NCBI RefSeq assembly: GCF_023111095.1
Contig: NZ_JALGYW010000001.1
Coordinates: 278,973 to 342,972, forward strand
Origin: Maribellus sp. YY47
GTDB lineage: Bacteria > Bacteroidota > Bacteroidia > Bacteroidales > Prolixibacteraceae
Direction of reading: 5' to 3'
Length of the DNA stretch: 64,000 nucleotides
Of this stretch, positions 31,907-34,169 are shown in pieces. Position numbers and translations under genes: made by a program. Positions within the stretch are counted from its first letter, which is position 1. Every line of letters begins with the position of its first letter. Under the pieces are notes generated by a model. It had not been told where the DNA came from, searched no databases, and saw only the letters and a list, made by a program, of their open reading frames with translations.

Positions 31907-32377
31907 TTAGCGGTTGTCGATTTTCTCCGGATTCAGATCGTGATTCTGCATACGATACCAGGCCAGTTCTTCGTAACGGGTTCCGGGTTTGCCATAATTG
32001 CTGAACGGATCGATGCTCAGTCCGCCGCGTGGCAGAAATTTCCCCCAAACCTCGATGTATTTTGGTTCCATCAATTTGATCAGATCTTTCATGATGATGT
32101 TGATACAATCTTCGTGAAACGCGCCGTGGTTGCGAAAGCTAAACAGGTAAAGCTTCAGGCTTTTGCTTTCGACCATTTTTTCTCCCGGAATATAACTAAT
32201 GTAAATCGTTGCAAAGTCGGGCTGCCCGGTTATCGGACAAAGGCTTGTAAATTCGGGTGCATTGAATTTAACCCAGTAATCATTCTCCGGATGTTTGTTG
32301 TCAAAAGTTTCCAGTACACCGGGTGTGTAATCAAAAAGATAGTTCGTTTCGTTTCCGAGGTGTTTTAAATCGCTCAT
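31907..32377 (-). CDS. queF: NADPH-dependent 7-cyano-7-deazaguanine (preQ0) reductase
   Basis: A 156-residue unimodular QueF (type I). It contains the catalytic cysteine in [11 protein letters not shown] and the family signature [21 protein letters not shown], which includes substrate-binding Glu and His. It reduces preQ0 to preQ1 in queuosine biosynthesis. Its ATG overlaps the stop of queC in an ATGA arrangement (32374-32377), so the two are translationally coupled. It is the last gene of the yhhQ-queC-queF operon. Confidence 0.95.
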
Positions 32378-33033
32378 GCTTTTCTTGAATTTAGATAGTT
32401 TTCCAGTCCGCGGTTACGCAGCATACAGGCCGGGCAATGTCCGCAGCCTCTCCCTTTTACGCCGTTGTAACAGGTTACGGTTTCGTTTTGTACAATTTCC
32501 AGTACTCCGAGTTCATTCGCCAGTTGCCAGATGGCCGCTTTGTCTTTCCACATCAATGGAGTATGGATCGTATATTCGTAATCCATCGATAAATTGAGGG
32601 TTGAATTCAGCGAAAGTATAAAGTCGTTCCGGCAATCGGGGTAACCACTGAAATCGGCTTGTCCCACGCCGGTAACCAAGTGATGAATATCGCGGGCTTT
32701 GGAAAAAATGGCGGCATAGGTCAGAAATAACATGTTTCTTCCTTCCACCAGCGTATTGGGTGGCCGATTCTCCGGTTTTGTTTCTTCCACTTCCATTTCC
32801 TGCGAGGTGAGCGCATTTTGCGTGAGTTGCCCCAACAGGTCCATCCGGAAAATACTTAGTTGGATGCCTGCTTTTTCTGCAATACTTTTCGCGGCTTCCA
32901 GTTCAATTTTGTGCCTCTGCCCGTAATCAAAAGCAATGGCCTGCACTTCCGAAAAATTTTGCTTTGCCCAGAACAGACAAGTGGTAGAGTCCTGTCCGCC
33001 TGAAAAAACAACAAGGGCTTTTTCTGCTATCAT
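32374..33033 (-). CDS. queC: 7-cyano-7-deazaguanine (preQ0) synthase
   Basis: A 219-residue ATP-dependent enzyme. [13 protein letters not shown] is the PP-loop pyrophosphatase motif, and the C-terminal cysteine cluster CYNG...GCGHCPAC binds zinc. It converts 7-carboxy-7-deazaguanine to preQ0. It sits between the transporter yhhQ (1 bp gap) and queF (4 bp overlap). queD and queE are not in this window. Confidence 0.95.
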
Positions 33034-33034
33034 T

Positions 33035-33715
33035 TTAAACCTGCTTTAAACGGAACGGATTGTACGAAATATTGTAATCGTAGGTGTCGATGCCTTCCAG
33101 TTTTTTTACTTTGTTTACGATAACAATGGTAAGCGGAAGCACCAAAATCTCATAAACAGTTTTGATCAGGGCCTGTGTCAGAATCATTGTCAGCATAACA
33201 TTTACAGGAAATACTCCGGCAAAGGCAACGGTAATAAAGATGAGTGAATCGGCACCTTCGCCGGCCAGCGTCGATACAATAGCACGTAATGAAAAATTTT
33301 TGCCTCGGGTCATTACTTTGAAACGGCTCATTACATAAGCATTCAGAAAAGACCCGAGCAAATAAGCCATTAAACTGGCAGCGACAATACGCGAAGTGCT
33401 GCCCAAAGTGGTTGCAAAAGCTTCCTGATTTTGCCAGAACGGAGCGGCAGGCGCTGCGATGGCCAGGGTGATAAACAAAGCCGCGAGAATGTTTACGCCA
33501 AAACCGGCCCAGATAATCAGGCGGGCTTTTTGGTAGCCCCACACTTCGGCAATTACGTCGTTAATGATATAGGCCAGCGGAAAGATCAAAACTCCGGCAG
33601 GAGCCGACCACGGGCCGATCATCATAATTTTTGTTGCAAGAATGTTGGAAAGGATAAGGCAGGCTGCAAAAACAATACCCGCCAGCATGAAAGTTACTGA
33701 AACTGTTGTTCTCAT
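33035..33715 (-). CDS. yhhQ: Queuosine precursor transporter (YhhQ/QPTR family)
   Basis: A 226-residue integral membrane protein with about six hydrophobic helices. ILSNILATKIM, FPLAYIINDVIAEVWGYQKAR and the later GEGADSLIFI are signatures of the YhhQ (DUF165) family, which imports preQ0/preQ1 in characterised members. Heading an operon with queC and queF supports that role. Its 5' leader, 35 nt from the predicted transcript start to the ATG, can fold into a preQ1-I-type pseudoknot. Confidence 0.93.
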   Translation of the reverse strand: MRTTVSVTFMLAGIVFAACLILSNILATKIMMIGPWSAPAGVLIFPLAYIINDVIAEVWGYQKARLIIWAGFGVNILAALFITLAIAAPAAPFWQNQEAFATTLGSTSRIVAASLMAYLLGSFLNAYVMSRFKVMTRGKNFSLRAIVSTLAGEGADSLIFITVAFAGVFPVNVMLTMILTQALIKTVYEILVLPLTIVIVNKVKKLEGIDTYDYNISYNPFRLKQV

Positions 33716-33749
33716 TTACTTGTTTTTAACGTGGTTATCAAGCACACGT
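33716..33749 (-). promoter_or_regulatory. Candidate preQ1-I (class I) riboswitch controlling yhhQ-queC-queF
   Basis: Read on the minus strand, ACGTG (33749-33745) pairs with CACGT (33733-33729) as P1. The loop contains CTTG (33742-33739), which can pair with CAAG (33722-33719) in the A-rich tail TAAAAACAAG, making an H-type pseudoknot. Landmark bases of known preQ1-I aptamers are in place: U after P1 (33744), the unpaired C before the 3' P1 strand (33734) after UAA, and an A directly before the CAAG strand (33723). The tail ends 3 nt before the ATG, so ligand binding would hide the initiation region. Gene context (queuosine precursor transport and synthesis) fits. The tail is 2-3 nt shorter than in textbook examples. 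Confidence 0.75.
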
Positions 33750-33763
33750 GGTTAATACGACTG

Positions 33764-33792
33764 CAAATATACAAAGATTCTGTAAGTTGCAA
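33764..33792 (-). promoter_or_regulatory. Promoter of the queuosine operon
   Basis: On the minus strand TTG (33792-33790), 18 bp, TATATTTG (33771-33764). It is a perfect -7 box that places the transcript start about 6-8 nt before the pseudoknot, so the riboswitch is the very 5' end of the mRNA. Confidence 0.75.
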
Positions 33793-33830: not shown

Positions 33831-34169
33831 TTACAGGATTTCGTCAATGTTCTCCGGCGGATTTCCCAGTACGGCTTTATCGCCGTTCACCACAATGGGG
33901 CGGTGCAACAGTTTCGGATTTTTTGCCAAGATTTTAATCCACTCTTCGTCACTCAGAACTTTTCCTTTGTACAGGTCTTTATAATCCTGTTCGTGTGTGC
34001 GCACCAAGTCAAAAGGTTTCTTTCCGGTGAGTGCAATAATTTCGGTCAGCTCTTTTTCGCTGATCCCTTCTTCGAGGTATTTGACGATTTCAAATTGGCA
34101 ACCTTTGTCTTCCAAAAATTTCAGCCCGTTACGGCTTTTTGAGCAGCGTGGATTATGATAGATTTTCAT
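33831..34169 (-). CDS. ArsC/Spx-family thioredoxin-fold protein
   Basis: A 112-residue protein with HNPRCSKSRNG at the N-terminus, holding the single cysteine (Cys9) of the glutaredoxin-coupled arsenate reductase family, and the LLHRPIVVNG motif with a substrate-binding arginine. Length and motifs match ArsC-like (YffB/ArsC) proteins. No arsenic resistance genes are nearby, so a general thiol-redox role is as likely as arsenate reduction. It lies 13 bp after ppk1 on the same strand and is probably co-transcribed with it. Confidence 0.85.
   Translation of the reverse strand: MKIYHNPRCSKSRNGLKFLEDKGCQFEIVKYLEEGISEKELTEIIALTGKKPFDLVRTHEQDYKDLYKGKVLSDEEWIKILAKNPKLLHRPIVVNGDKAVLGNPPENIDEIL

Follow-up and report, generated by a model that had tools for sequence, protein, structure and literature searches.

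A probable class I preQ1-like riboswitch in the yhhQ leader of Maribellus sp. YY47, from a branch missed by Rfam

The leader of yhhQ in Maribellus sp. YY47 is probably a riboswitch of the class I preQ1-like kind, resembling type II most closely, that belongs to a branch missed by Rfam and would act at translation initiation; we infer both preQ1 as its ligand and the switching that this ligand would drive. The fold of the leader and the queuosine regulon to which it belongs are well supported. The leader lies in a window of 64,000 nt (contig NZ_JALGYW010000001.1, positions 278,973 to 342,972 of the forward strand), and all positions below are those of the window unless stated otherwise.

The yhhQ leader and its genes

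On the minus strand, the 34 nt 5' of the yhhQ start codon (33749-33716) show P1 and P2 in the arrangement of a class I preQ1 pseudoknot. They read ACGTG-TGCTTGATAAC-CACGT-TAAAAA-CAAG-TAA-ATG in DNA letters, which corresponds to ACGUG-UGCUUGAUAAC-CACGU-UAAAAA-CAAG-UAA-AUG in RNA letters. The whole element (33716-33749, minus strand, ending at the base before ATG) was delimited by its sequence, by alignment of orthologues and by a held-out covariance model, R2. Its parts were placed by sequence and, for the two helices, by covariation in relatives. The 5' strand of P1, ACGUG (33745-33749), pairs with the 3' strand CACGU (33729-33733), and a U (33744) stands right 3' of the former. The 5' strand of P2, CUUG (33739-33742), pairs with CAAG (33719-33722), and the dinucleotide AC (33734-33735) precedes the P1 3' strand. 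The A-rich loop L3, UAAAAA (33723-33728), occupies -13 to -8, counted from the A of AUG, and the P2 3' strand ends 3 nt 5' of the yhhQ ATG, which begins at 33715.

Farther 5' on the same strand, a TTG (33792-33790) is followed after 18 nt by TATATTTG (33771-33764), which we take, as did an earlier, sequence-only reading of this DNA, to be a promoter -7 element of the TAnnTTTG consensus. It ends 14 nt 5' of P1, and the last base of this gap is a single C before ACGTG. The promoter, P1, P2, the conserved U, the unpaired C, the A-rich tail and the 3-nt spacing that the sequence-only reading had described were all seen on the minus strand.

The leader is located between an ArsC-family gene (33831-34169; PF03960, 60.3 bits) and yhhQ (33035-33715, minus strand), which encodes a queuosine precursor transporter of the Vut_1 family (TIGR00697, 116.4 bits). 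Downstream on the minus strand are queC, for preQ0 synthase (32374-33033; TIGR00364, 253.3 bits), and queF, for preQ1 synthase of the QueF-II form (31907-32377; TIGR03139, 173.9 bits). NCBIfam and Pfam matches bore out these three genes, which had already been named from the letters.

Several searches addressed how far the layout exceeds chance. A layout descriptor, composed only after the relatives' leaders were known, gave one match on the two strands of the window, at the yhhQ leader, and a mean of 0.075 matches on 40 dinucleotide shuffles of the window, three of which contained one. The pattern CGTGTNCTTGN{3,6}ACCACG occurred once in the 5.04-Mb genome and its reversed control did not occur. 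With model R2, built from 27 leaders of other families and leaving the window's family out, the yhhQ leader ranked first in its own genome (E 6.4e-7, 51.9 bits) and the runner-up place had E 0.56 (22.5 bits); R2 is not wholly independent, because its members were picked among named loci and the finds of a model, R1, that contained the window's core. The nested-only fold energy of the leader was not unusual (z 0.29) and is uninformative.

Queuosine regulon and relation to the preQ1 classes

Among the 149 relatives searched, 55 carried a close yhhQ (E < 1e-50), and 54 of their leaders were read, G048 being left out for a frame with stops. The element was present in 51 of the 54, 48 of them by descriptor and three (L100, L106 and L107) by eye; a covariance model recovered these three at E 0.005-0.02. 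It was absent from the close yhhQ leaders of G094, G037 and G071, and the descriptor found it in none of 12 yhhQ-like leaders from outside Bacteroidota (L041-L043, L046, L048, L050, L052-L057). The three leaders recognised by eye (L106 is the same as L135) have a longer loop, which contains CUAG, and the tail CAGG; P2 in them requires a bulge or mismatch, and the tail continues into AGGAG or AGGAA 5' of AUG.

Covariance model R1 was made from yhhQ cores only. Its seed held 23 of the 26 distinct cores at first and 21 after two rows with a misplaced P1 had been dropped, the window's own core being included. At E ≤ 0.05 and with strict filters, it was run on two samples, of 395 genomes from the phylum and 393 from the order. 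The order is the GTDB grouping, which we take to be Bacteroidales; the closest named protein relatives are those of Maribellus (99% identical), a genus that NCBI puts in Prolixibacteraceae, order Marinilabiliales. R1 matched in 8 of the phylum genomes and 65 of the order genomes, giving 76 distinct places combined, whose gene context was read by tblastn of YhhQ, QueC, QueF, QueD and QueE. All 66 places at E < 0.005 were 5' of a queuosine gene on the same strand, as were 3 of the 10 at E 0.005-0.05. By gene, these 69 of the 76 places divide into 56 at yhhQ, 12 at queC and one at queD-queE. They represent 61 genomes in 25 families, a minority of the order (61 of 393 genomes), and in eight genomes the element occurs twice, at yhhQ and again at queC or queD on another operon. 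Because R1 was built from yhhQ leaders only, finding the element on the operons of queC and queD too argues independently for a queuosine regulon.

The true matches in the phylum sample came from five genomes, all of the window's order, and G346, G365 and G479 had no queuosine gene at the R1 place. Seven R1 places (L132, L133, L134, L199, L200, L202 and L204; E 0.007-0.048) had none of the queuosine genes sought and were taken as chance; among them, L199 is a 384-nt contig end whose context cannot be judged. The alignment of the element, A3, comprises 96 copies in 67 distinct rows and includes the chance rows L199 and L200, which are left out of the 65-row counts and of the count of 92 leaders given below.

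A U after P1 and an A before P2 are features of class I type II structures, and in this type these two residues and those of L3 touch the ligand. In our alignment, the U after P1, the AC before the P1 3' strand and the A before P2 were each constant in 65 of 65 distinct rows, which serves as a consistency check only, because the model that picked the rows favours those letters; L3 was 78% A. Type II is described as a preQ1 sensor in which AC precedes the P1 3' strand and the C is the ligand-specificity base (PMC11625349), and by this analogy C33734 would be the corresponding base here. The type II features present are thus the H-type pseudoknot, the AC, the A-rich L3 with the A and the U, and the position 5' of queuosine genes.

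With the type II riboswitches of Thermoanaerobacter tengcongensis and Bacillus subtilis, the window's leader family shares the H-type pseudoknot, the short P1 and P2, the AC, the A-rich L3 and the queuosine genes downstream. It differs from them in that the inner P1 pairs are mostly GUG/CAC, the loop core is mostly CUUG and the tail CAAG. It is also invisible to the Rfam preQ1 model (RF00522), has a 5' hairpin (P0) in 45 of 92 leaders, and carries no Shine-Dalgarno-like 4-mer (AGGA, GGAG or GAGG) in 86 of the 96 copies. Class I type III, as found in Escherichia coli yhhQ (PDB 8FZA), likewise controls yhhQ, has AC and places the P2 3' strand near the start codon, but its tail, AAGG, buries a Shine-Dalgarno sequence, whereas the tail of the window's leader is CAAG followed by UAA. 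Type III, which is reported almost only from Pseudomonadota (PMC11625349), was ruled out by this tail and by the presence of Shine-Dalgarno-like 4-mers in just 10 of 96 copies. Type I agrees in overall fold, but there the P1 3' strand is preceded by UC and the aptamer binds two molecules of preQ1 (PMC11625349); it was ruled out by AC rather than UC in 65 of 65 rows.

Leaders resembling type I were seen separately in the window's order. Nine of them (AGACAGUUCGNAACCAUCCUGUCU..ACUAGG and close forms, matching at about position 1500 of L225, L226, L228, L229, L231, L233, L234, L236 and L237) stand before queC in seven cases and before a Vut_1 gene in two, and all score below the RF00522 cut-off. 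L227, whose RF00522 match is also below the cut-off, has an adjoining queC as well. R1 recognised neither the type I leaders nor the leader of a second Vut_1 gene described below.

The covariance check with RF00522 that had been proposed for this leader went against it, as the leader gave no match even at E ≤ 10. RF00522 likewise failed to match any of the 21 loci scanned from relatives at this threshold, and with strict filters none of the 393 order genomes rose above the gathering cut-off (39 bits), 11 lying below it at E ≤ 0.01. Membership of RF00522 is therefore rejected by score, which counts against membership and not against the fold. We weigh this miss lightly, because 0 of 393 order genomes pass the cut-off and 61 of 393 have the element by R1; it follows that queuosine regulation in the order is left unannotated by the current Rfam model. 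The class I preQ1-like reading itself is supported by conservation among orthologues, by covariation, by the three positions of ligand contact and by the association with queuosine genes.

The presence of class I in the phylum is not new, since Bacteroidota are among the phyla given for type I in a review, which describes type II as similarly distributed (PMC11625349). Our literature search, which did not cover the 2014 survey of preQ1 classes, came upon no account of the sequence family or its regulon, of P0, or of the Shine-Dalgarno-free placement.

The natural ligand of a queuosine-pathway riboswitch might instead be preQ0, queuine or another 7-deazaguanine, which we consider rather unlikely here. 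YhhQ transports preQ0 as well as preQ1, the T. tengcongensis (Tte) type II aptamer binds preQ0 just 17-fold more weakly than preQ1 (PMC10622847), and the element is found on both uptake and synthesis genes, all of which would suit such a ligand. Against this, the constant positions match those of type II aptamers, whose described role is to sense preQ1 (PMC11625349), and preQ1 would accordingly be the ligand that drives the yhhQ leader.

Proposed action at the start region

The most likely mechanism is that the pseudoknot closes over -13 to -4 on binding preQ1, which would lower initiation without any Shine-Dalgarno sequence. With little preQ1, P1 alone would form, the A-rich segment at -13 to -8 and CAAG would be single-stranded, and the ribosome could load. 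With enough preQ1, the ligand would pair with C33734, P2 would close, and -13 to -4 would be tied up 3 nt before AUG. The closed pseudoknot would reduce initiation at yhhQ, and queC and queF would follow if they are on the same mRNA. No Shine-Dalgarno sequence would be in play, and the A-rich loop would serve as initiation signal and aptamer loop at once.

Such action on the initiation region would fit both the anatomy of the leaders and published data on Bacteroidota. The first ATG lies 0-6 nt 3' of P2 in 89 of the 96 aligned copies, and in these 89 the frequency of A is 0.80-0.97 at -13 to -10 from AUG. Strong initiation in Flavobacterium johnsoniae is reported to be associated with A at -12/-13, -6 and -3 (PMC6847099); of these positions, the window's leader has A at two, -12 and -6, and U at -3. 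Bacteroidota are reported to lack Shine-Dalgarno sequences in general, and in Prevotella bryantii a start-region structure of -5.2 kcal/mol lowered a reporter to about one fifth, with no effect in E. coli, and a hairpin at -21 caused no inhibition; structure in the start region has an unusually large effect on translation in this species (PMC3155529). From these data, a pseudoknot closed by the ligand over -13 to -4 would be expected to block initiation.

An effect of the pseudoknot on transcription, through pausing or through Rho-dependent termination or decay after blocked translation, is unlikely. The B. subtilis preQ1-I riboswitch does pause RNA polymerase (PMC11625349), and five queC copies are far from their start codon, as such an effect would allow; yet P2 is separated from AUG by 3 nt here and from the first ATG by 0-6 nt in 89 of 96 copies, too little for an intrinsic terminator to fit before the gene, although pausing may occur all the same. 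An intrinsic terminator as expression platform of the window's leader was rejected as unlikely on this 3-nt gap, and action at initiation is the reading we retain for it. The five queC copies (L148, L153, L178, L181 and L182) lie about 70-170 nt 5' of the start codon, a distance at which direct blocking is inapplicable, so they must work otherwise. In L178 and L181, inspection by eye showed that the P0/P1 junction has a CUUCCG to which a downstream CGGAAG is complementary, possibly as an alternative expression platform.

The review predicts translation-controlling riboswitches in bacteria that do not use Shine-Dalgarno sequences and points out that the absence of this sequence hampers searches for them (PMC11625349). 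The 34-nt leader family, with 61 sampled genomes and 25 families in a phylum reported to be generally without Shine-Dalgarno sequences, makes that prediction directly testable. Translation control by riboswitches in Bacteroidota has been claimed before, given the title of a preprint cited in PMC7366714, which is said to show Bacteroides TPP riboswitches regulating transcription or translation.

Covariation and variant leaders

Absence of covariation in orthologous leaders, which the sequence-only reading had named as the result that would speak against it, was not found. Both helices covary in relatives, P1 strongly and P2 sparsely. In A3 (67 rows), P1 and P2 had 91.0% standard pairs, compared with 82.2% in shuffles and 17.8-57.5% in slid structures, and the covariation score was 0.207 compared with 0.043 in shuffles and at most 0.072 in slid structures; the number of further pair types, the weakest measure, was reached by 17 of 500 shuffles. 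In the 65 rows, 90.9% of cells were paired and 31 cells were changed on both sides, compared with 4.9 in shuffles (maximum 10 in 300 shuffles). These two-sided changes occurred in five of the nine pairs, a number that the best of the 300 shuffles also reached.

P1 carried most of the two-sided changes, and its counts depend in part on the model behind the alignment. Its pair forms were CGUG/CACG, the commonest (CGTG/CACG in DNA letters), AGUG/CACU, AGAG/CUCU, CGAG/CUCG, GGUG/CACC, GGGG/CCCC and GGAG/CUCC, and the outermost pair was formed in only 19 of 65 rows. P2, which the model does not contain, was 97.3% paired in the 65 rows, with unpaired cells in the outer pair (3 of 64) and the third pair (4 of 64). 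Its two-sided changes amounted to four cells, in two of the four pairs and in few families; the variants were AUUG/CAAU (two genomes of one family), CUAG/CUAG (another family) and a partly broken AUAG/CUAG.

These changes bear on whether the element is a protein-binding site, that is, a DNA operator at the palindrome CACGTG or the target of an RNA-binding repressor. The palindrome of the window's leader does lie within a direct repeat, AACCACGT, but several relatives lose the palindrome and keep the pairing through compensatory changes (GGGG/CCCC, GGAG/CTCC, AGAG/CTCT, GGTG/CACC), and in P2, which is a third segment, two pairs show changes on both sides, which makes a protein site very unlikely. 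It is barely credible that conservation concerns the A-rich tail alone, as an initiation signal, with the pairing a coincidence: A-rich stretches 5' of start codons are reported in F. johnsoniae (PMC6847099), but P1 covaries, both P2 and the loop show conservation, and all 66 places that a model of the entire element matched at E < 0.005 are at queuosine genes.

The 5' flank of the element was compared among the relatives. A hairpin (P0, score ≥ 10) flush with P1 or one base off was found in 45 of 92 distinct leaders, compared with a mean of 4.9 and a maximum of 10 in 100 dinucleotide shuffles. Its sequence varies, the 45 cases having 40 different stems. Control hairpins ending 6, 9, 12 and 15 nt farther 5' were found in 11, 1, 9 and 11 of 94 leaders, respectively, and those ending 3 nt farther 5', which overlap the same P0 hairpins, in 20 of 94. 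P0 was commoner in leaders without the outer P1 pair (40 of 73) than in those with it (5 of 21; Fisher p 0.014, uncorrected for relatedness), and the window's leader has the fifth P1 pair and no P0. We suggest that P0 stacks on a short P1. The passages of the review that describe class I mention no 5' helix of this kind (PMC11625349). Of 94 leaders, 75 have TAnnTTTG at most 75 nt 5' of P1 and 19 do not.

A second Vut_1/TIGR00697 transporter of the same genome also has a class I preQ1-like leader, about 1.1 kb past the end of the window (L127:1373-1417, equal to C1:344072-344116), and its ATG is at about G000:C1:344112. This leader differs from that of yhhQ and has the form GCAGG-U(UC or GG)CAUCAC-CCUGC, followed by an A-rich stretch and AUG. 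This form was found in 24 of the 29 paralogue leaders fetched (24 of 26 by script; L120, L124 and L125 are without it by eye). RF00522 matched 3 of 13 of these loci, all below the cut-off, with a best score of 22.3 bits (E 0.25). The loop CAU could pair with the AUG start codon, to which it is complementary, and all 11 leaders of the GGCAU form have AUGC following it. P1 of the paralogue leader covaries and the three start-codon pairs are invariant; because these three pairs never vary, the pairing (P2) stays a proposal.

More tentatively, and with slightly more doubt than confidence, we suggest a wider picture in which a widely scattered, RF00522-invisible class I branch of Bacteroidales would use its A-rich loop as a Shine-Dalgarno-independent initiation signal buried by the ligand. 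About half of its members would carry the coaxial 5' hairpin as a new aptamer helix, and in Prolixibacteraceae a sister leader, that of a second precursor transporter, would pair its loop CAU with AUG. A model of the paralogue leader, R3, run on 247 genomes, gave two strong places, with E 4e-12 and 2e-11, and the other matches listed had E 0.0017-0.05.
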